This document shows, piece after piece, positions 24,305 to 45,802 of a DNA stretch of 64,000 bases (its first letter is position 1; every line of letters begins with the position of its first letter). The notes under the pieces were generated by a model. It did not search any database and was not told the DNA's origin. It saw nothing but the letters and a program-made list of their open reading frames with translations. Position numbers and translations under genes: made by a program. The stretch is from Rhizodiscina lignyota (Eukaryota > Ascomycota > Dothideomycetes > Aulographales > Rhizodiscinaceae): assembly GCA_010015805.1 (NCBI GenBank), contig ML978123.1, positions 2,294,001 through 2,358,000 on the forward strand. The letters run 5' to 3'.

Positions 24305-27300
24305 ATGGCGGACCCCTCGGGGCCCAGGCCGGTCCACCCACGCAGACCGCCAGCCCACAAGTCCGTATCTCTCAGGCACTCCATTTCACCGGGACCGCAA
24401 GCGCCGCCTACTGCGTCACGCCCTCAACACCGCGGCAGGATCCCGAGCAGCGACCTGGCAAATCCGTCTTCTAGTGACGATTCGAAGCAGCCCTCGAGCG
24501 CCGACTCGAAACCCGAACACAGGAAAGAGAGTTCGGGGGAGAGCAGCAACGCAGACAAATGGTTCGAGCGTTCCAACAATCAAGTAAAAGCGAACGCTAG
24601 CAACCTGGCCGACAGTATGTTTTCGAGCGCTGTATATTGCCGTTTACTCTAACGAGGAACAGATGACCCGCCGTTCTTCCTTCGACATTCCTCATCCTCC
24701 GAAACACCCCCCGATATCGTAGAGAGTCGGATCCCGCAGTTCCATTCGCAACCATCTATGCTTCCCTACCGAAACAGTCTCCTGCAGATGGAACCACCGG
24801 AGAGCAGCTCCGAAGAGTTTCGAAGCGTCATCGATGACCTTACGGTTCAGAACAAGAAGCTGAAAAGGAAACTGCGAAAGTACGAAAAGCTCTACGACAC
24901 GCACCTGCAGCATGAAAAGCTCTTCGAAATTAGAGTCCATGGACTCCACGGCGCCAAGAAGAGGGAGTTGGAAGAGACGCTCCGGAAATTTGCAATGTCG
25001 CTTGATGAGAGTTCTAAGGCGAGCATACCAACAATTCCGATGGCCACCAGTAATTATACAATGTCAACGCCAGCGCTCGAACCACAGATCGCTTCGTCTT
25101 CGGGGCGCAACTCCGCGAGGTTTGCGGACTCTGCATATGTATCGAACTCTGCATCTGGCCAGCACTCGTTGGCATCGGCAACCCAAGATCGTACAGGTCG
25201 CAAGGAATCCAAAGACGTGCCCAGGGACATGTCCAAGGCTACATTGTCTTCTCGTAACCAAGATATCCAATCATACTTGCATGATATTCCTGCTGGGCTG
25301 CTTCCGAGACAGCCGGTGGCGATGTCAGAGAAGTCAAAGCGTAAGCTTGTCGTCCGAAGACTGGAGCGGATTTTTGCTGGCGGGGGCGCAGCAATTGGCG
25401 GCCATCAGCAACCTGAGCAGCAGCAAGAAGTATCGCAATCAGCCGCACATGCCGACAGGGTAGCAAGAGAAGCTTCGGGCCAGCACGCGAGAGCAGAGGG
25501 TCTGCGAGAAGCCCGCATAATGATGAAGGGTGATCCAGCAGATAATCCGGTGGTGGGGCGTATGGAGAACGCCCAAGATCTGCGCCCTAGCATAATCGCT
25601 GATCTGCGTCACCCTACCGGAAAAGATTCTCCCGAGCAGCGTCCAACTCGGCCATTGGATCTTGATTTACACAGGGCTCAGGTACCAAGCGACAATATTG
25701 AGTACATCAGACATCTTGGTTTCTCTCCGGCAGATATTGATGCGCCGGACGAGCGGGATGAGGGCCATGGGTGGATCTATCTCAATGTCCTCACGAACAT
25801 GGCCCAGCTTCACACTCTGAATGTTACGGCCGATTTCGTAAAGAAATCAGTCAATGACTACAGTCATAAACTTCAGATCTCTCGAGACGGCCGGAAAGTT
25901 CGTTGGAAAGGCGGTCATGGAGTCACCCGCTCCAGCAGTGATAGCTCGCCGGATACTGGGACACAATCACCCAGCAGCAAGGGCAAGGATAAATCTTCAA
26001 GCAAGAAGAAGCCGAAGCTTGAGCGGATGTCCAGTGATGGCTCCAGTGACTCCCTAGTTAACGGATCGCAGGCAGGATCAAGTAGGCTTGCGTATGTTCC
26101 GCTCTTCTTCCACAAGCAAGACTCCGAGGGATACGAAGAGACTTCAGACGAGCATGCCACATCATGGGACTCGCGACAGCAAGAACAGGCGGTCGGAAAC
26201 TCTTCTGGCTTCACCAGTTCCGGTATGCGTACAAATTCTTCGAAGAGGAAACGCGGTGATGATGGACCAATCATATTCTACAACAACGCCAAATTCTGCA
26301 CTGATCTTAGTGGGGACCCGAACGAGAGCCAGTCTTCAGTAAAATATGACACTTTGAGTACGAATCCAGTTGGAATGGATGCTGTTCAGGAATTAAGCAG
26401 TCACGACGAGGCGAACAAGCGCCGAAGACCTCTCACGACCACAGCGCCCGAGGACCCCATGAGCGTGGACGACGAGGGCAGCGGATCCCAGTCAGAAAGT
26501 GAAGATGATATCAAATTTTCTCCTAAGTCGGCCTCTTCTAATAACTTGCAGCCATCAAGCCTTGCAGACATCAATTTCGAGGTTTCTGGGCTTGGAGGCG
26601 TGCAACCCATGGATAATTTCAAGATAGAAGTCCAATCCCGGCGGACGTCTACCCCTGGACAAGCTCCGCCGAATGCGTCTCATTTCCCGCGCCACAAGCC
26701 GTATCCGCGCAAGATCATGGAGATTCTTAGAGAAGGCAGATCAGAGTCCCAGCCCAATGAGGCGTCCTCAATGGGGGCACCGCCTGTGGAACAACACGTC
26801 GTATCTACGCGACAAGAAGATCTGCCGGCCTCTGTTCTTCCCCCTCCAGCTCTTCTCTTTGATGTGGACTCTCCTGAGGATGATTCTGACAATGACACCG
26901 ACTCGGGTGCGGAAAGTGACGTATCTTCTCTCGAACATGATGACGGACCGCCACCCTCAACCGTGCCTCAGATGTTGCACTTCTCCTCAAATTCTTCCGA
27001 CGGTGAAGAGGAAGATGAGGACGACGAAATGTCGGACGGATCTTTGGATCTCCTTGCGACTGCTAGAGAACTCGATCCAACGGCTGTGCACGAGAAGGCA
27101 CGAGATTACAATGCAACTCTAGCTGATCAACTCGCGGATGAAATTCCAGCTGGCAGCTCAGCTGCCACTGCTGGCGGCGGGAGCGGGTATAATAGTCCAG
27201 CTGCAGCGTCGACAGGCATGGGCTCCGATTCAAAGTCTGAGCAGAAAGGAAGTTACGGTGGGACGGTACCAAGCCTGAAGCGGGCCAGAGCAAGTAACGA

Positions 27301-27334
27301 TAGCACCGATCGGGCGAGTGAGCAAGAACCATGA
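24305..27334 (+). CDS. frq: FREQUENCY circadian clock protein
   Basis: The negative element of the fungal circadian clock. With FRH and casein kinase 1 it inhibits the White Collar complex and is progressively phosphorylated. Two exons, 24305..24614 and 24663..27334, intron GTATGT..ACAG; 993 aa, near the 989 aa of Neurospora FRQ. Matching blocks include SSGESSNADKWFERSN, NDPPFFLR, the coiled coil FRSVIDDLTVQNKKLKRKL (about 155-180), KLFEIRVHGL, and the nuclear-signal-like KSKRKLVVRRLERIF. The CK1-binding region follows, with IEYIRHLGFSP, GWIYLNVLTNMAQLHTLNV and RDGRKVRWKGG. Two acidic PEST-like stretches lie in the C-terminal third (SPEDDSDNDTDSGAESD and DGEEEDEDDEMSDGS). The protein is Ser-rich throughout, consistent with heavy phosphorylation. 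No antisense gene is evident, but a qrf-like antisense transcript is known in Neurospora. Confidence 0.97.
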
Positions 27335-28530: not shown

Positions 28531-30974
28531 ATGGTATGTATTCCCTGCCCTCGACGCGTTGTCCTGAGTGTAATTGAACCTCGATTTCCCGCTTTTGATT
28601 CAGGCGGCAGGGGACACGGAGCTGATATATCATATTCCTGCAGGCCGACAGTGGTGCCACAGTGTTGGCAGAGAAGTTATCTGTCTCCACAGTCGGAGAC
28701 TCTGAAACGTCATCCAGCGCTACGCCCATCTCTCCTGGGATCCAAAGGGAATTGTCGTCGGGTTCTCGGAATCCCACGTCTCGCAGGAGTTCTGCATCGT
28801 CTTTATCAAACAGCAGCCGCCACTCTCAATGGACCTCGGCCGATAGTGAGAAAGTAGAACCTCGTCGTCATTCTGAAAGCTCGGCATCAGCAACATCGAA
28901 TCGGCATCGGCCTTCTGCCTTACCCTCCAGCTCGAAAAGGACGTCTGCTCCTCGTACGAGCTCTCTCGATAGGGACCAAGGCAGCTTCCACCCCAAACTT
29001 GACCGCATACGGGAAGACCGAGAAAGAGAGAGCGATCAGGAAACGCAACGCGGCACCTCCTCGAAAGACCGTGAGCGTGATCGAGAAAAGCCGCGCAACA
29101 AGACTCGAACATCCCGTCGAATCGTTCCTGCCGAAGACCTAGGTATTGGGAATGGGCATGTCTATCGCCGCAACGTACGACATCGACCCAGCAACGGCAC
29201 TTCGCTACAGCGTCAGTTCAATAGCATCGCGAATGCAAGCCTAGTGTCCGTCCTCACAAGTTTAACTAGCACATCTGGAGCTAGCAGTGGCAGTAATAAG
29301 ACAGTCACGCAAGATTCGTACGACAGAGGCCACAGTCATCGAAAGAAGAGGAGCAAAACACGACGACGAGAAGAAAAGGACCCAGCCTCAACGGCATCTC
29401 ACCATTCTTCCTCCAGAGGGCAAGGACCTAGCGTATTTGACTACATGGAGGACGACATGCCGTCAGAATATGAGGCGGCTTACATGAATGGCACTTCAGA
29501 GGCATCATGGCATCAAAGGCCTGCATCGTCGTCTGGGTATGAAGCCTCAGAGGGCAGCCCAGAGATTGAACCCAGATCCATCGTTGTACGTAGGGTCTCC
29601 GCAACACGCATGGATAGGATGAACTCGGACTCGGGTATATCCATGAGAGAAGGGACCCCGGAGCCTGGCGACAAGCCTTCACCGGTCGCTCGCCATGACT
29701 CCGCTGTTGAGCATAATGGTGTTGATGATGACGAGAGCAACAGCGACAGTGACAGCGACGAGGACGGTGACGAGACACAGCTCACGGACGTATCACAGTT
29801 TCAGGTCAGCCAACATGATGAGGACCTGCACCTCAGAGAGCAACTTCAAGAAAAGGAAGAGCAGATAAAGGAACATATCTTGCAGTCGCCTCAACCTCGG
29901 CGGTATCATAGCTTTACCCGCCCACGGTATGATGTACAACCAGGTCTTCCAAATATGACCCAATATCCGGATCATTCGTATAGTCTACAACATAGCTATA
30001 CATACCCACAACCGATACCTCGGCCATCTCTTAATGGCTCTACGAGTTACCCGCCATACTCTCAAGCATATCCTTATTCCGGGTACCCTACCCGGCGGGC
30101 CAGTATGGTAGATGATCATAGAGGCGATACAACTGCAAAGACAACGCTCGCAGGGTATGAGCTCCTAGCGTTGAAGTTGTCCGAGCAGACAGGGTCGAAG
30201 CACATGGGGGTTAACAAAGGCGAAGAGGAGGTCACACCCTTATATCGACGTTTCGAGTTCTTAAATCATCGGATCCTCCTCCACCTCCAAGACGAGATTG
30301 CTGAGCTGGAAGAAGAACTGCGACGGATTGACGAGGCCATTGCACAACGACAGCAGCATGTACAAAACAGCATGAACGCGGAGACGGCTAAATCATCAGA
30401 TGAATCAACACCCCGAATCGCTGCGAGCAGACGAGACGATGCCAGAGCTGGTGGAGAGCTCTGCGAGCGACGAACCATGCTACTTGGGAGGATCTACAAC
30501 AAGCTCGCGCAATACAACAAGGCTATGGCGGCGTATACTACCGCAAAGACGAATTTGAATTCCGCCACACAGGAGGAACTACAATCGTACCGGACCTGGA
30601 TGGAGGCGAACGTGCCAATCGACAAAGTGGAGACCAGATTTCTGGACTTTGACGCAGACCTCGTTTCCATCGGCAACTCTCACCGACGGGATCCGCCGGT
30701 TGCTCCGGTAGAAACTGCTCAACAATCCGCAGACCTCACGGCGCCCGCTCAATCCTCCACGGACGACAAATGGTTGACCCCATCAGACATGATGCTGATC
30801 TTTTCCATACTTATTGCCTTCTGTTCATGTATTTTCCTGACAGCTTCGATGTTCGATTCACAGTGGGCATGGGCGCTTGCCTTCATGTCCTCGGCGTGGG
30901 CTTTCATATTCGCTTGGGCTTACAGCAATAAAGTCCTGCACGAGAGAACAAAGTCAAATTTGAAAGGAAAGTAA
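28531..30974 (+). CDS. DUF6594-like membrane protein with long disordered N-terminus
   Basis: Function unknown. Preferred model: a first coding exon holding only the ATG (28531..28533), intron 28534..28643 (GTATGT..TGCAG), then 28644..30974, giving 778 aa beginning MADSGATVLAEKLS. Starting at the internal Met at 28662 would give 770 aa. Residues 1-500 are Ser/Arg/Lys-rich and disordered, with an acidic run (DESNSDSDSDEDGDE) and a Tyr/Pro-rich part. The C-terminal ~250 residues fit the fungal DUF6594 layout. That layout has a globular GYELLALKLSEQ start, YRRFEFLNHRILLHLQDEIAEL leading into a coiled coil, and two C-terminal membrane segments (MLIFSILIAFCSCIFL and WALAFMSSAWAFIFAW). The family name is from memory of the domain pattern. 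Confidence 0.8.
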
Positions 30975-39171: not shown

Positions 39172-40250
39172 AGCATTTCACGGACTGTATTTGAAGGTTC
39201 TGCGCTCGGCGTTCATGGATGGCAAAGGCATATGGGAGCTTCGATTGCATTTGCGGCAGTTGGGTATTGTATTTTGGCTATGAGCGTCATACTTTCACGT
39301 GCTCGGCATGGCTCTGGACTGAAGACTGAAGTCAATATGACCAGTTTTTCTGGAGGCGATTGATTACAACATGCTTTTCTTGTATATAGTCTGAAGACTA
39401 CTTGAGGTGATCGCAGCTCCCCTGCTGTGCGTAGCGGAACACCTATCAATCAAACATCTCCGATCATACACCTCCCCTGCGCTTTCATCTTGTGCTTTAA
39501 CATATTTAAGTTTGTCTGTATCATCGGTGACGCATGTGCCTGACTCAGGACGACTATACTGATGCACATGGACAAACGCCGTCGGCCAATTGTCTGTCAA
39601 GTGGAGCTGGCTCCTCCCGATCTGGGCGGCATACACAAGAACTGCATTTATTAACTAGAAACAGGCCAGGAATAAGGAAGACTAAACATCAACTCGACGC
39701 TTGGATGTCTACTATATGACCCCGCCCAACGCAGACCCGGCTTGGCGAGGTGAAAGTGTGTATGTAGTAGTCATACTCGTGACGACCCATCTTGACGTGA
39801 TAACTACTGCAAGCGGCGTGGGGTTGGATTTCCGTGTGGAGTCGCGATCTACAACAAGGTAAAGCCAGGGTTTGTCCGGGATAGAATGACAGTTTCGAGA
39901 AGTAGCACGACATTATTCAACAGGTTTTTCGGCGTAACACGAGGCATTGAAGGTTTTGGAAGAGGCGGTGTTTCGCAGCGTGGCCGTGGGGCGATTGTGA
40001 TTGGAGTGGCGACCGAAAGTGCGGTACAGAACGCACGCAGGGCGAAGGGGCCTGTGCAGCTGATCACTCTCCAGCCCAACCTCCGCACGCAACCCTTCTA
40101 CATCTTCTAAGGAATTCCATTGCCGACAACCTCACGTCAACGACAACGCCCACCACGCTCCAATCCATTCCAATCCATACACTTTCAACAACGACCTCTT
40201 CGACCCTACCGGATCAACCGCTCCAGCAGCAACCGTGGCAAACACACGCA
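39172..40250. other. Intergenic, Mpe1 3' flank and antizyme promoter/leader
   Basis: About 1.1 kb between two plus-strand genes. It includes a 74-codon frame (39886..40110) that would lie upstream of the antizyme start if transcription begins early; it has no recognised similarity. The last 140 nt before the antizyme ATG are rich in C and A with almost no G, as in many fungal leaders. Confidence 0.5.
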
Positions 40251-41284
40251 ATGGCGTTAATCACCAATTCCAGTAATAAAAGTAAAAGTAGTAATTCCTA
40301 CGACGCTCCTCCCATGAAGCGCAGCTCGTCCCCGCAGACGCTCGCGAGTTGCTACACCGTCGACGCCTCCTCCATGGCGCTCCAGGGCTTCCATTACTCC
40401 ACTACCGGGGCTGGCGGGGCTGATTGGCGTTCCTGAGGTCGGCTCGGTATGTGTTTTCCACTCCAATGTTGTTTCATCATCGAAATTCCAGTGCTCTTCT
40501 GTCCGACTCGGGATTGTTGTAGAGCAAAGCCGCTGACGTCTCATTTCAGGGAATGCCATCACCACCGCAGAGTCCCCCCCTCGCCGCGTACACTAGCGCG
40601 ACCGAAAACCCATCGCGGCGGCGAAGGGGGGCTGCACATACCGTTGCGGAAGAGTGTGAGAGGCTCTTCTGCGAGACACTGACTGCTGTTTTCCTAGGTG
40701 AGGGGGACTTGGCCGTTCAGGACTCGCTTGTGACGGGTGGGCAAACACAGGACGAAATCGACGTTAAAGGGGATAAGGGCGTACAACGTCCCGGACACAA
40801 AGTTGGGCTGGGAGGGCTGATCACGCCTACAGCATCCCCGGAGGCGTTGATGAAGCCGGAATTGATGAACACTGCGGATATACTAGTGCGCCAGTGGGTC
40901 GAAATGTTCGACTATGCCGGAGGCGCGAGGTTCCGTGGCTTCGTTGCCTCTGACGGAATGGAGAAGACACTTTTCATATTCTTCGACGAAGGTGTAAATG
41001 GAAATGATCTGAAGCCTGGGTAAGTCGAACACATTTTTTAAAACGGACTATGAGACGCTAACTTCCTCTACAGACTGATGGCTTTGCTTGAGCTGTGCGA
41101 GCTACCAGCCTTCGACTGTTCCAAACTGGTTACCTGCCTCGACAGACACACCGAGCCTGAAGAACTGGCAACTTTGACGAGGGACCTGGGATGGGTTGGG
41201 TTCGAGCCGTACACCCTCGTCGATTGGACTCAGAGCGATCAAATAATCTCCGACTCATGGATTTTTCTCAGCATGGACGTCTAA
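40251..41284 (+). CDS. oaz1: Ornithine decarboxylase antizyme (needs +1 frameshift)
   Basis: Binds ornithine decarboxylase and targets it for ubiquitin-independent proteasome degradation, closing a feedback loop on polyamines. ORF1 is 40251..40436 (61 codons and a TGA stop). ORF2 continues in the +1 frame: 40435..40446, intron 40447..40549 (GTATGT..TTTCAG), 40550..41019, intron 41020..41073, 41074..41284. A ribosome slipping +1 at TCC-TGA would make a 291-aa protein joining WRS to EVGSGMPSPP. The C-terminal domain carries the antizyme fold pattern: KTLFIFFDEG, LMALLELCE, FDCSKLVTCLDR and LGWVGFEPYTLVDW. The TCC TGA context matches the UCC-UGA shift site known for antizymes from yeast to mammals. 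Without a shift, only a 61-aa peptide with no domain results. Assignment is strong from the combination of fold, ORF layout and shift site. Confidence 0.9.
40431..40436 (+). promoter_or_regulatory. Programmed +1 ribosomal frameshift site (TCC TGA)
   Basis: TCC codon 61 followed by the in-frame TGA stop of antizyme ORF1. Reading resumes at GAG (40435) in the +1 frame. In known antizymes high polyamine raises shifting at this site. The donor of the first intron lies only 10 nt downstream of the TGA, so any 3' RNA stimulator would have to be formed across the exon junction. Confidence 0.85.
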
Positions 41285-41558: not shown

Positions 41559-44500
41559 TCACACATCAACTTCGCCCAAGCCCCTTGCCCTGACCGCGTC
41601 TTTCACGCTCGTCCTGACTCTCCCAAGCGCGTTGATCCACTTGTCATTATTGCTTGCAGTTGTGCTCTCACCCACAAGCACATCACCCAGCCCTTCCTCG
41701 ACCACCCAACCCATCCATCTTGCCATGCCAACTGCCTTGCTCATGTCGCCTTCCTCCTTCACGACCTTGTCCAGATATATGACCAGAGCGTCGATATCCT
41801 CGTCATACGGCCCTTCAGACCTGAACTCGCTCCACCACGCCGAGATCGCGTCACGTAAGTCTGGCAAGCTGGACAGCTTCCTCTTGGTGAAAGTTGGTTT
41901 GGCAGGGCGTGGTGGCAGATGTAGGAAGCGTTCTATTGGCCCTTCTTCCTTTTCTTCTACTTCTTCTCCCTCCTCTTCATCGTCCGCTGCTATTGTTGAA
42001 CCCTTATCCGGCTGAGGAGCTGGCTCTTTCTTTCGAAACGCTTGGAGATCGAGGCCAGACGTCTTCTTGAGCCTTGCGCGGCGCTGCTCTTCAAGGATTT
42101 CGCGTCTGATATCCTCTGGGAGGGCCTCTAAAATTTCTGGTGGGACTTGTGCAATTTCGTCGTGCCCGTCTTTGCTTTCGGGACGAGGCTCGTCCGCATC
42201 ACTTTCGGTGCCTGTGGTCGCGTCGTCCTGACTTGCTGGTTGTGTGAAGTGAGCCGTGATGAAATTGGACTGGGTGAGCGTCGAGTTGCTCGCGGCAGCC
42301 CTGAGGGTATCAGCTTTCGAAGGACGTCCTCGCTTGCGAAGTGGCGCTGGGGCCGGAATAGGCTTCTTCGAGATTGCAGTGGTTCGGATCTTGCGCGTCG
42401 ACTGGGGAAGTAAAGTTTGGTCCTGCCGACGCCGCGTGCTTGGGGAGACGCTTGGTTGGTTGTAGAAGGCCAAAATTTCCTCTCGGACGTCTGCAGGTAG
42501 AGCATTGAGGGTTTCCAAGTCGATTTGGGATTGATTTGGGAAGGCGAGGATAGGCGTGTGACCTGTTTGCTTGCCACGCTGGGAAGAACCCTGAGCTTTC
42601 GCCGTAGTGGTGAGCTTGGACAGATCCATATGTTGGGCAAGCTTTGCACGAATGTCCTCGGGGAGCTCTTCAAGAACCTTAGGGTCGATTTGCGTGGGGA
42701 TCACAAACTGTGTTCCAGCTGTGTTAAGGGGCTTGCGACTTGGAGTGCTAATGTTCAACTGTTGGGCTCCAAATCCAATAGCGTCGTCATCGGGGTGTCG
42801 GATTGGCTTCTTGGGCGTGACTATGTCGTCCTGGATAGGGTCCTCCTGCTCCTTTCTGTCTGCCTTTGGCGCATCCCCGACTTTGAACTGCAGCTTTCTC
42901 TGACTGCTTTGAAGCTGTCCATCGTTGTCGGCCTTCATTGGTTCCAATTTCGTCATCTGTACGCCGAGGCCACGAAGCTCTCCAGGCGGGAACCCATAAC
43001 TTTTGAGCAGAGACAGCGCTTCCTTTGCCAAAATCTCTTTGGCATTCGTAGCAACGCCGAGAACCACACTTTTGTTGTAGGTATCGCACTTCCCGTGCCC
43101 AAGATGTTTCGGTGGATCAAGAGGAGCGTCGGCGGAGCGCCTCATTATCTTCATGGTCAAGTGACGGCCTTTGACACGTTCTTTTAGGAGACGCTTCATC
43201 AGTTCACCGCAGAGACTCTCGATGAACTCGTCCACTTGCTCTTGGTTTTCGAACCGGACTCCCCAGTTGACTTCAGCAGAGACAGACTTGCGGACGACAA
43301 CATCGCCAACCTCTGCTCGATCAATGCCTCGAGCATACTCCCAAATCTTTTCGCCAGTTTTAGGTCCGAGGGCGGTGGTGAGTTTCTCACGTGAGACCTC
43401 ACGGATGTCTTGGACGAATTTGATGCCAATCTCCTCGAGCTTTCCACCGATGCTGTACGCCACACCCGGAAGGTCTTGGACCTCGAGCTTGCCGACGAAT
43501 TCAAGGACTTTATCTGGTTCGATTTGATACTGACCGGCTGGCTTTGCCTTTCGGAGCGCAACCTTGGCAAGTAGTATATTGCCTCCAATTCCAACAGAGA
43601 CGTTGCAATCAGTTTTCCGCTTGACTTCATCTCGCAGGCTCTGAGCAATTTCATCAGCTTTAGATTGTTCCCGATCAACGGTGCCTTCTCCCCTCCTTTT
43701 GCCATCCGACCCTGCTGCTGCTAGGCATATCTCTGTAATATCCACTAGCGCCTCGTCAATGCTCACGCTTTGCACTACCCCTCCTGTTGCAATGATTGCT
43801 TCGTAAAATGCACGACTTGCCTCCTCATAAGCAGGGAAGTCGTACGGAAGAATCTTGAGCTCCGGACAAAGGTCGAATGCTCGCTTCATCCACATCCCGT
43901 TCTTTATCCCGAACTTACGGGCAGGGTAGTTGCAGCTTGCAATCTCAGATCCACTGCCGGTGCCATGAGCTACCACTGCTGGCTTGTCTTTGAACTGTGG
44001 ATTCTTCTTGAGCGACACGGCCGCAAAGAAGCTGTCAAAGTCAACGTGCAGGATATATCGACGGGAGCCAGCTGCGCGTTTCTTGCGCTGTTTCTGCGAC
44101 GTAGACTTTTCAGCAGCCAAAGCTTGCATCTGTGCCTTTAGGTCTGCTTTCCATGTCGAGAGATGATGCAGGCGCGACTCGCGGTAGTACTGCTCGAGAA
44201 AGCCGGGGTCAACCACGGTCGACTTACGGATTTTTGGGTCAGCTAGCAGTATCGCATTGTGCTCTTCTGCAGTGAGTTTGGTTCGCTTAGCGACAAGATG
44301 TTGTTCGTCGCTGTTCGGCCTTTTAACGCCTTTTGACCCACCCGTCTCGTCTACCCCGTCGAAAGCTCCGATATCTTCCAAGTCTCCCGCCTGACGAGCA
44401 TCGTATTCCTCTGGTGCCGCCTGCTCATCATCAACAACTTCGCCCAAGTGGAATGATGTATCGGCAATATCTGCAAATTCGTGGTCCATATCGGCATTGT

Positions 44501-45311
44501 CATCATCTTCGACCAAGTTGTACCCAAATTCCCCGTCAATCGGCATATCCGGCGGATTGGTTTGTAAAGGAGAACTGGCCGGGCTGGCCAGTAAGTCATG
44601 ATCAGACTTTCCTTCAGGAGCAATCGCAGTAGGCTTGCTAGGTGTAGTAGGATCATCGTCAATCTCGTCCTCTATCTCTGGAGTTGGAGGCTTTTGTGAC
44701 AGATATCGAGAAGCTGAGGATGATTGAGGTTCCTCTGCCTTCAGCTGCGAGGTGTACCAACTGGTTTCCGTCTGATCTCGATATCCCCGTGATTTGACGT
44801 CTGCTTGGCTAACCACTTTCCCATTTTGAAATCCGAGCACCCGTTGACCAGCTCCCTCTGCTAAGACACGGAACGAGTCCCATGGTAGCAGTCGTCCGGC
44901 TTTGACGCTTTCCACAACCCATGCTGGCTTCACTATCCGATACCTCTTGAACTCGACGGCTTTCTTCGGCGTCAAATTGCTGCAAATGATATGCGTGACC
45001 GTTGTCTTCCCATCAAGGTATTGCATAAAGCCTCCCCCATGTGTGACGATAAGTTTGTGGATGTCATTCAAGGACGGTTGAGTATAGCCATTGACGTGCG
45101 CGACGATGCCTCGGAAGATATTAGGCTTGTCGTCGCTTTTTGACCGTAGTTCTACATCGAGGTTTTGCAGTTTGATCTTCTTGCGCCTGAAGTAATCGGA
45201 GAAGCCGCCAAATTTAGAGCCTTCGTATTCCTCGCCCCCTTCATCCTCAAATGTGTGGTTCTCAATCCTCTTACGAACAGCATTCGAATTGCTTTCCAGT
45301 CGCGACCCCAT
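41559..45311 (-). CDS. rev1: DNA repair protein REV1 (Y-family dCMP transferase)
   Basis: Inserts dCMP opposite lesions and abasic sites and recruits other translesion polymerases. A single 1250-aa exon. The N-terminal BRCT domain spans about 60-150 (FRGIVAHVNGYTQPSLNDIH, THIICSNLTPKKA). The catalytic Y-family core begins about 420, with LHVDFDSFFAAVSL (catalytic Asp), the SIDEALVDI motif near 518 (catalytic Asp-Glu), and YSIGGKLEEIGI helix-hairpin-type region. The C-terminal third holds three ubiquitin-binding LP motifs: VLEELPEDIRAKL, TLNALPADVREEI and ILEALPEDIRREI. A C-terminal Rev1 interaction domain likely fills the last ~120 residues. An acidic stretch (DDEEEGEEVEEKEEG) precedes it. 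The gene has no introns, unusual beside its neighbours. Confidence 0.97.
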   Translation of the reverse strand: MGSRLESNSNAVRKRIENHTFEDEGGEEYEGSKFGGFSDYFRRKKIKLQNLDVELRSKSDDKPNIFRGIVAHVNGYTQPSLNDIHKLIVTHGGGFMQYLDGKTTVTHIICSNLTPKKAVEFKRYRIVKPAWVVESVKAGRLLPWDSFRVLAEGAGQRVLGFQNGKVVSQADVKSRGYRDQTETSWYTSQLKAEEPQSSSASRYLSQKPPTPEIEDEIDDDPTTPSKPTAIAPEGKSDHDLLASPASSPLQTNPPDMPIDGEFGYNLVEDDDNADMDHEFADIADTSFHLGEVVDDEQAAPEEYDARQAGDLEDIGAFDGVDETGGSKGVKRPNSDEQHLVAKRTKLTAEEHNAILLADPKIRKSTVVDPGFLEQYYRESRLHHLSTWKADLKAQMQALAAEKSTSQKQRKKRAAGSRRYILHVDFDSFFAAVSLKKNPQFKDKPAVVAHGTGSGSEIASCNYPARKFGIKNGMWMKRAFDLCPELKILPYDFPAYEEASRAFYEAIIATGGVVQSVSIDEALVDITEICLAAAGSDGKRRGEGTVDREQSKADEIAQSLRDEVKRKTDCNVSVGIGGNILLAKVALRKAKPAGQYQIEPDKVLEFVGKLEVQDLPGVAYSIGGKLEEIGIKFVQDIREVSREKLTTALGPKTGEKIWEYARGIDRAEVGDVVVRKSVSAEVNWGVRFENQEQVDEFIESLCGELMKRLLKERVKGRHLTMKIMRRSADAPLDPPKHLGHGKCDTYNKSVVLGVATNAKEILAKEALSLLKSYGFPPGELRGLGVQMTKLEPMKADNDGQLQSSQRKLQFKVGDAPKADRKEQEDPIQDDIVTPKKPIRHPDDDAIGFGAQQLNISTPSRKPLNTAGTQFVIPTQIDPKVLEELPEDIRAKLAQHMDLSKLTTTAKAQGSSQRGKQTGHTPILAFPNQSQIDLETLNALPADVREEILAFYNQPSVSPSTRRRQDQTLLPQSTRKIRTTAISKKPIPAPAPLRKRGRPSKADTLRAAASNSTLTQSNFITAHFTQPASQDDATTGTESDADEPRPESKDGHDEIAQVPPEILEALPEDIRREILEEQRRARLKKTSGLDLQAFRKKEPAPQPDKGSTIAADDEEEGEEVEEKEEGPIERFLHLPPRPAKPTFTKRKLSSLPDLRDAISAWWSEFRSEGPYDEDIDALVIYLDKVVKEEGDMSKAVGMARWMGWVVEEGLGDVLVGESTTASNNDKWINALGRVRTSVKDAVRARGLGEVDV

Positions 45312-45802
45312 TGTGGCTTTACGAAGCTTGTGATGATATTACTACTTGCGTAGGGAGTCTTGATGGTGATCGGCTCATCACGGCGATAAAACGCGCGATG
45401 GTGGAACGCGTCGTCGAAAGAACGTGGTGTCAAAGTGGCGATTTTGAAGAATTGTATTCTTTTGCGAAGAGGTTAGACGGAACTTCATATAATGCGCCCT
45501 TGCGTTGAGGGATTAACAGTCATAAAGCAATTTGCCATCGAAAGGCACCAGTGCAGGCCATTCAATCCGCTCGGCATGCTTTGGAAGTCGCGACTTATGA
45601 CGCGCGACCGCGGCTTACCCTCTCGGGCTTAGCGGCGTAAACGGAACTTCCCACAGCTCGAAGTCTTGGCACCCGAACTTTTTGCTGCAGAAGTTTACGG
45701 TCGAGTAGCGTCTGGTTTTTTTCTCCTCGCATGCGCAGCATCGCGGTCTGTCAATTCCACCTCTTCCGCTCTGAAGACCAGCTTGCATAAGCCTTAGCCA
45801 TT
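45312..45802. other. Divergent promoter region REV1 / FKBP
   Basis: About 490 nt between rev1 (minus) and the FKBP gene (plus), so probably a shared promoter. No motif was assigned. Confidence 0.5.

Follow-up and report, generated by a model that had tools for sequence, protein, structure and literature searches.

An antizyme gene lies on the forward strand of the window, the whole stretch of 64,000 nucleotides that was analysed, and occupies positions 40251-41284 with three exons and two introns (Table 1). It is adjoined by a REV1-like gene on the opposite strand (41562-45338). The window also contains the clock gene FRQ at 24653-27331 (+), a long ORF matching PF09421 with an E-value of 4.1e-126. 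The presence of FRQ and REV1-like genes in the window fits a filamentous ascomycete, no class being proven by them. The ORF of 782 residues at 28626-30971 (+) has DUF6594 (PF20237) as its sole Pfam match at E-values up to 1e-5.

Antizyme acts as a brake on polyamine synthesis, and its full reading needs the ribosome to skip one base at a stop codon. The frameshifting itself, its control by polyamines and the binding of ornithine decarboxylase (ODC) are all established antizyme knowledge. In the present gene, ORF1 begins with the ATG at 40251, is 61 codons long and ends in TGG-CGT-TCC-TGA. Its protein is MALITNSSNKSKSSNSYDAPPMKRSSSPQTLASCYTVDASSMALQGFHYSTTGAGGADWRS (MALITN...ADWRS), followed by the TGA. 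A +1 shift at this stop leads into a frame which stays open until the TAA ending at 41284 and yields a protein of 291 aa. With the T of the TGA skipped, the codons are GAG GTC GGC TCG / GGA ATG (slash, splice junction), giving WRS/EVGSG and continuing as EVGSGMPSPP....

Splice signals are canonical at both introns. The donor of intron 1, located 10 nt 3' of the ORF1 TGA, matches the consensus at 6 of 6 positions, and a branch-like CTGAC is present just upstream of its acceptor CAG. With intron 1 left in the mRNA, the shifted frame closes after 33 codons, and the antizyme therefore needs the splicing of intron 1. Retention of intron 2 brings a TAA in frame. A sequence-only reading of this DNA had placed the gene at 40251-41284 with the junction 40446/40550, a 103-nt intron and a donor 10 nt past the stop, all of which are correct. 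Its ORF1 stop at TCC-TGA and its shift product WRS/EVGSG are likewise borne out by the frames. The second intron (41020-41073) was absent from that description. Upstream of the gene, a 74-codon ORF at 39886-40110 (+), with its own ATG and in another frame, ends 140 nt 5' of the antizyme ATG and is a candidate upstream ORF.

Table 1. Features of the antizyme gene and of its predicted RNA structures, in positions of the window.
Feature	Position	Strand	Remarks
Exon 1	40251-40446	+	ORF1 to TGA 40434-40436, plus 4 ORF2 codons in the +1 frame (EVGS)
5' arm of shift-site hairpin (predicted)	40421-40437	+	TGATTGGCGTTCCTGAG, includes TCC-TGA
TGG, second codon 5' of shift codon	40425-40427	+	strong antizyme conservation per excerpts of PMC5009743
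+1 shift site TCC-TGA	40431-40436	+	TCC 40431-40433, TGA 40434-40436; majority antizyme shift site per excerpts of PMC5009743
3' arm, exon 1 part (predicted)	40443-40446	+	CTCG, paired to 40434-40437
Intron 1	40447-40549	+	103 nt, GTATGT...CTGAC...CAG
Exon 2 of ORF2 (+1 frame)	40550-41019	+	
3' arm, exon 2 part (predicted)	40550-40561	+	GGAATGCCATCA, paired to 40421-40424 and 40426-40433
Hairpin wholly in exon 2 (predicted)	40567-40635	+	69 nt, -36.6 kcal/mol, starts 27 nt after TGA in spliced RNA
Further hairpin in exon 2 (predicted)	40644-40674	+	12 pairs
ODC_AZ-coding stretch (PF02100)	40886-41281	+	split by intron 2; coordinates derived from residue numbers
Intron 2	41020-41073	+	54 nt, GTAAGT...CTAAC...CAG, within antizyme domain
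Exon 3 of ORF2	41074-41284	+	TAA at end

When the protein is read through the shift, the Pfam family PF02100 (ODC_AZ) matches residues 178-291 over the full length of the profile (1-114 of 114; E 8e-41, 139 bits, cut-off 24.2), which covers the last 114 residues. ORF1 alone matched no Pfam family at E up to 1. A PDB sequence search at E up to 10 gave just two matches (E 0.55 and 1.6), both unrelated. At the level of the sequence, the antizyme domain is complete. Three features of ornithine decarboxylase antizymes are present: the ODC_AZ domain, a short ORF1 with a longer ORF2 that overlaps it in +1 phase, and a UCC-UGA shift site with UGG two codons upstream. We are highly confident that this fungal gene encodes an ornithine decarboxylase antizyme, that its sequence is intact and that it is read with a +1 shift; the full-length PF02100 match through the shift agrees with the sequence-only reading, which had described a complete antizyme with an intact +1 signal and its domain in the +1 frame. 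The kind of gene is already known, and this one is an ordinary but complete fungal antizyme. An Rfam search at E up to 5 returned four matches, all below the gathering score and none of them an antizyme frameshift element. Excerpts of PMC2375905 state that no stimulatory feature is universally conserved in antizymes, and the Rfam result therefore does not exclude antizyme membership.

TCC-TGA and the upstream TGG are the usual antizyme signals in the excerpts of PMC5009743. By itself the hexamer TCCTGA is unremarkable, with 37 occurrences in the window against 43.85 expected, and TGGNNNTCCTGA is also at chance level (2 in the window against 0.71 expected, a count attained in 13 of 100 shuffles). 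The chance that a stop chosen beforehand is a TGA preceded by TCC, with TGG at -2, is about 4e-5 under the codon usage of the window; in this product, codon frequencies come from 14 long ORFs of the window and TGA is assumed to make up one third of stops. Codon bias was scanned as log-odds in 27 windows of 90 nt, with 15 long ORFs of the window as training set. Frame 0 was best in all 4 windows ending before the site and the +1 frame in all 23 reaching or following it. What speaks for the shift is the position of TCC-TGA, which ends an ATG-started ORF where the codon usage switches frame, and not the hexamer itself.

Folding of the spliced mRNA predicts a hairpin of 38 nt at the shift site (16 pairs, -24.0 kcal/mol), with TCC-TGA inside its 5' arm. 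Its order is TGATTGGCGTTCCTGAG-GTCGG-CTCG/GGAATGCCATCA, where the slash marks the splice junction; 12 of the pairs connect the two exons and the other 4 are internal to exon 1. The contiguous 38-mer of the unspliced sequence reaches only -7.9 kcal/mol. The hairpin is more stable than all 24,871 coding control 38-mers (minimum -21.2), all 42,642 genomic 38-mers taken from both strands at step 3 (minimum -23.2) and all 10,472 coding 38-mers with similar or higher G+C. The best 38-mer across 24 control pieces of 877 nt has -21.2. Equal stability was reached by no dinucleotide shuffle out of 5000 (z -5.6) and by 5 of 5000 synonymous recodings in which TGG and TCC were held (z -3.7). Recoding of one side only gave 61 of 5000 for the exon 2 side and 190 of 5000 for the ORF1 side. 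The real exon 2 codons GGA ATG CCA TCA rank first among 96 synonymous forms, with the next forms within 0.1 kcal/mol. Joining of 56 intron-like donor/acceptor pairs in the window, a set which includes intron 1 itself and consists mostly of pairs not known to be real introns, gave a runner-up 38-mer of -14.8.

The strong folding of this mRNA extends beyond the hairpin. In a fold scan with 100-nt windows (78 in the antizyme mRNA and 1206 in 14 control ORFs), a z of -3 or lower was found for 7 of the 78 antizyme windows versus 0.66% of control windows (control minimum -4.08). The lowest energy of all windows belongs to mRNA 150-250 of the antizyme (-54.0 kcal/mol; control minimum -43.6), and the lowest z of all (-4.47) to mRNA 400-500 (40754-40853, +). 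The latter folds strongly yet is located far from the shift site, and the folding excess is therefore not confined to the shift site. In synonymous tests, the exon 2 hairpin at 40567-40635 was reached by 0 of 300 recodings (usage) and 2 of 300 (permutation). Stretches meant as controls were also low at mRNA 60-160 (2 and 0 of 300) and 400-500 (1 and 2 of 300), and not low at mRNA 300-400 (131 and 147 of 300) and 600-700 (248 and 253 of 300). The fold models thus have the antizyme mRNA folding more than expected in several places.

These results bear on whether the shift-site hairpin is accidental, in which case the shift would depend on nothing more than TCC-TGA with its TGG context, and perhaps on the hairpin in exon 2. 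We regard this as a serious possibility, somewhat short of an even chance. The hairpin is known from a single sequence and was picked after looking. It exceeds the coding and composition nulls in stability, and other parts of the same mRNA exceed nulls too. A candidate pseudoknot, GGTCG:CGACC, between 40437-40441 and the loop of the exon 2 hairpin is at chance level (257 of 2000 shuffles reach it). However, an accident has to be reconciled with a stability greater than that of every control window and of the other 55 pseudo-junctions, and with the rarity of equally stable synonymous recodings noted above. On these predictions, we regard it as evenly poised whether the junction hairpin contributes to frameshifting.

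The arms of this hairpin may instead serve splicing, their complementarity forming in the pre-mRNA and looping out intron 1, with no relation to frameshifting. It is true that the 12 inter-exon pairs form nearly as well before splicing as after it (mean pairing probability 0.93 in the 1284-nt unspliced RNA and 0.95 in the 1127-nt spliced RNA), that the closing pair of the helix, 40433:40550, falls right at the 3' splice site and that the minimum-energy fold of 40421-40570 also pairs these arms. However, the four further pairs, 40434-40437 with 40443-40446, prolong the helix unbroken only after splicing (mean probability 0.999 in the spliced and 0.0 in the unspliced RNA), which leans towards the mature mRNA, and the shift codon itself is located in an arm of the hairpin. 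We judge a purely splicing-related function to be a fair rival, though an improbable one.

A frameshift would not be needed if an alternative splice took out the TGA and joined ORF1 to ORF2 in frame, the very result which the sequence-only reading had named as refuting it. We paired upstream GT/GC donors (40260-40433) with AG acceptors 40-300 nt downstream that would join the two ORFs in frame, which gave 82 theoretical pairs. The top alternative donors score 5 of 6: the GC donor GCGAGT (40344), which pairs with three acceptors, the real one among them, and GTAATT (40291), which has an AAG acceptor and for which a branch site was sought and none found. However, the full GT donor consensus occurs in none of the 82 pairs, whereas the real donor has 6 of 6 and a CTGAC branch site near the acceptor, and the best-scoring alternative splices would also take out TGG and TCC, two codons characteristic of antizymes. 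As far as the genomic letters can tell, the refuting splice has no strong candidate, and we hold it to be very unlikely. Even less credible is independent translation of ORF2 from an in-frame ATG in exon 2 (40553-40555), whether ribosomes re-initiate after ORF1 or the transcript is a shorter one: this ATG is 13 nt past the ORF1 stop in the spliced RNA and its product would keep the whole antizyme domain, but the 61 codons of ORF1 are long and the gap is short for re-initiation as generally known, and antizymes use frameshifting from yeast to mammals (excerpts of PMC5009743).

Under the +1 frameshift reading, both introns would have to be removed first, else the shift could not yield antizyme. 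Ribosomes would start at 40251, read ORF1 and arrive at TCC-TGA, where many would terminate. A polyamine-dependent fraction would move one base forward and continue with GAG GTC GGC into ORF2. The product would be the 291-aa antizyme, which would bind ODC and lower polyamines. Stimulation is likely to come from the TGG..TCC context and from RNA structure: the shift-site hairpin, completed by the joining of exon 1 to exon 2, would be unwound by the arriving ribosome, with the strong exon 2 hairpin ahead. That the predicted hairpins stimulate the shift is what we infer from these models.

Placement of TCC-TGA in the P and A sites requires the hairpin to be melted, which differs from a classical 3' stimulator. 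Because the 5' arm is then inside the ribosome, the helix could act only earlier. It may slow the ribosome over the last ORF1 codons or set up the 3' arm. The pseudoknot of mammalian antizyme 1, located 3 nt from the site, raises a similar puzzle in the excerpts of PMC5009743.

The sequence-only reading had claimed that every stimulatory structure has to span the spliced junction. This is too strong, since the hairpin at 40567-40635 is all exon 2 and needs no junction, and signals 5' of the shift site sit in exon 1. The junction idea holds for the strong predicted hairpin at the shift site, which spans both exons, and fails as a rule for every structure. A tentative extension of it, to which we would assign roughly the same modest weight as to an accidental hairpin, is that splicing assembles a frameshift cassette: the intron cuts the 3' arm of the hairpin, and the unbroken helix of 16 pairs would be present only in correctly spliced mRNA. 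If true, such a cassette would link recoding with splicing and make the helix a place of polyamine action, perhaps in splicing and translation both. A stimulator formed by two exons would also explain why an intron sits next to the shift site, could be missed by scans of genomic DNA for frameshift signals, and would lend itself to a simple mutant test in filamentous fungi.

Antizyme frameshifting is textbook knowledge; a two-exon stimulator would be new. No junction-spanning antizyme hairpin was found in titles and abstract starts among the matches listed in our literature searches, a check which had the main antizyme surveys outside it and does not show absence from the literature. Searches of genome contigs and viral contigs with ORF2 gave no relatives; in the viral contigs, the match to L006 (query, the C-terminal 69 aa) has 10 identical residues and was dismissed as chance. 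The DNA pattern of the shift site was found in 0 stretches of the viral contigs and in 5 stretches of the prokaryotic genome contigs, about the number that we estimated by chance. A tblastn search of these five loci with the antizyme gave nothing better than E 1.1, and they were rejected as antizymes.

As in S. pombe SPA and other fungal antizymes, antizyme would be made here via a +1 shift. The S. pombe entry in Table 2 of PMC5009743, a source used in excerpts, is glycine-rich 5' of the site with P A G G A around -8 to -5. The present gene has GAGGADWRS, and its codons -8 to -5 (G-A-G-G) are near that entry. Antizymes of Botryotinia and Emericella are named in PMC3432380, whose excerpts give them, as of 2012, as lacking experimental study, and the matches listed in our literature searches contain no such study. 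Mammalian OAZ1 has the same UCC-UGA site, TGG as second codon upstream and two ORFs in +1 phase. However, it is stimulated on the 3' side by a pseudoknot that begins 3 nt downstream of its site (excerpts of PMC5009743), whereas here the candidate pseudoknot is at chance level and no Rfam antizyme element was matched.

Agaricomycete antizymes (Coprinopsis cinerea, excerpts of PMC4505036) share with this gene a predicted RNA structure downstream, which is 19 nt from the shift site there, while the exon 2 hairpin here begins 27 nt after the TGA. Their site is UUU-UGA with a nascent-peptide stimulator, in contrast to TCC-TGA here. Their conserved 5' stem loop is located 106 nt upstream, whereas our predicted hairpin surrounds the site. 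Saccharomyces cerevisiae OAZ1 shares the +1 shift before UGA and the polyamine control, and differs in its GCG-UGA-C site and inhibitory nascent peptides (excerpts of PMC5009743).

A minor alternative pairing is also predicted. The G-rich stretch of ORF1 at 40400-40420 (+) can pair with the C tract at 40573-40578 in the exon 2 hairpin, at a mean probability of 0.077. It is possible that this modelled pairing acts as a switch when the ribosome clears ORF1.
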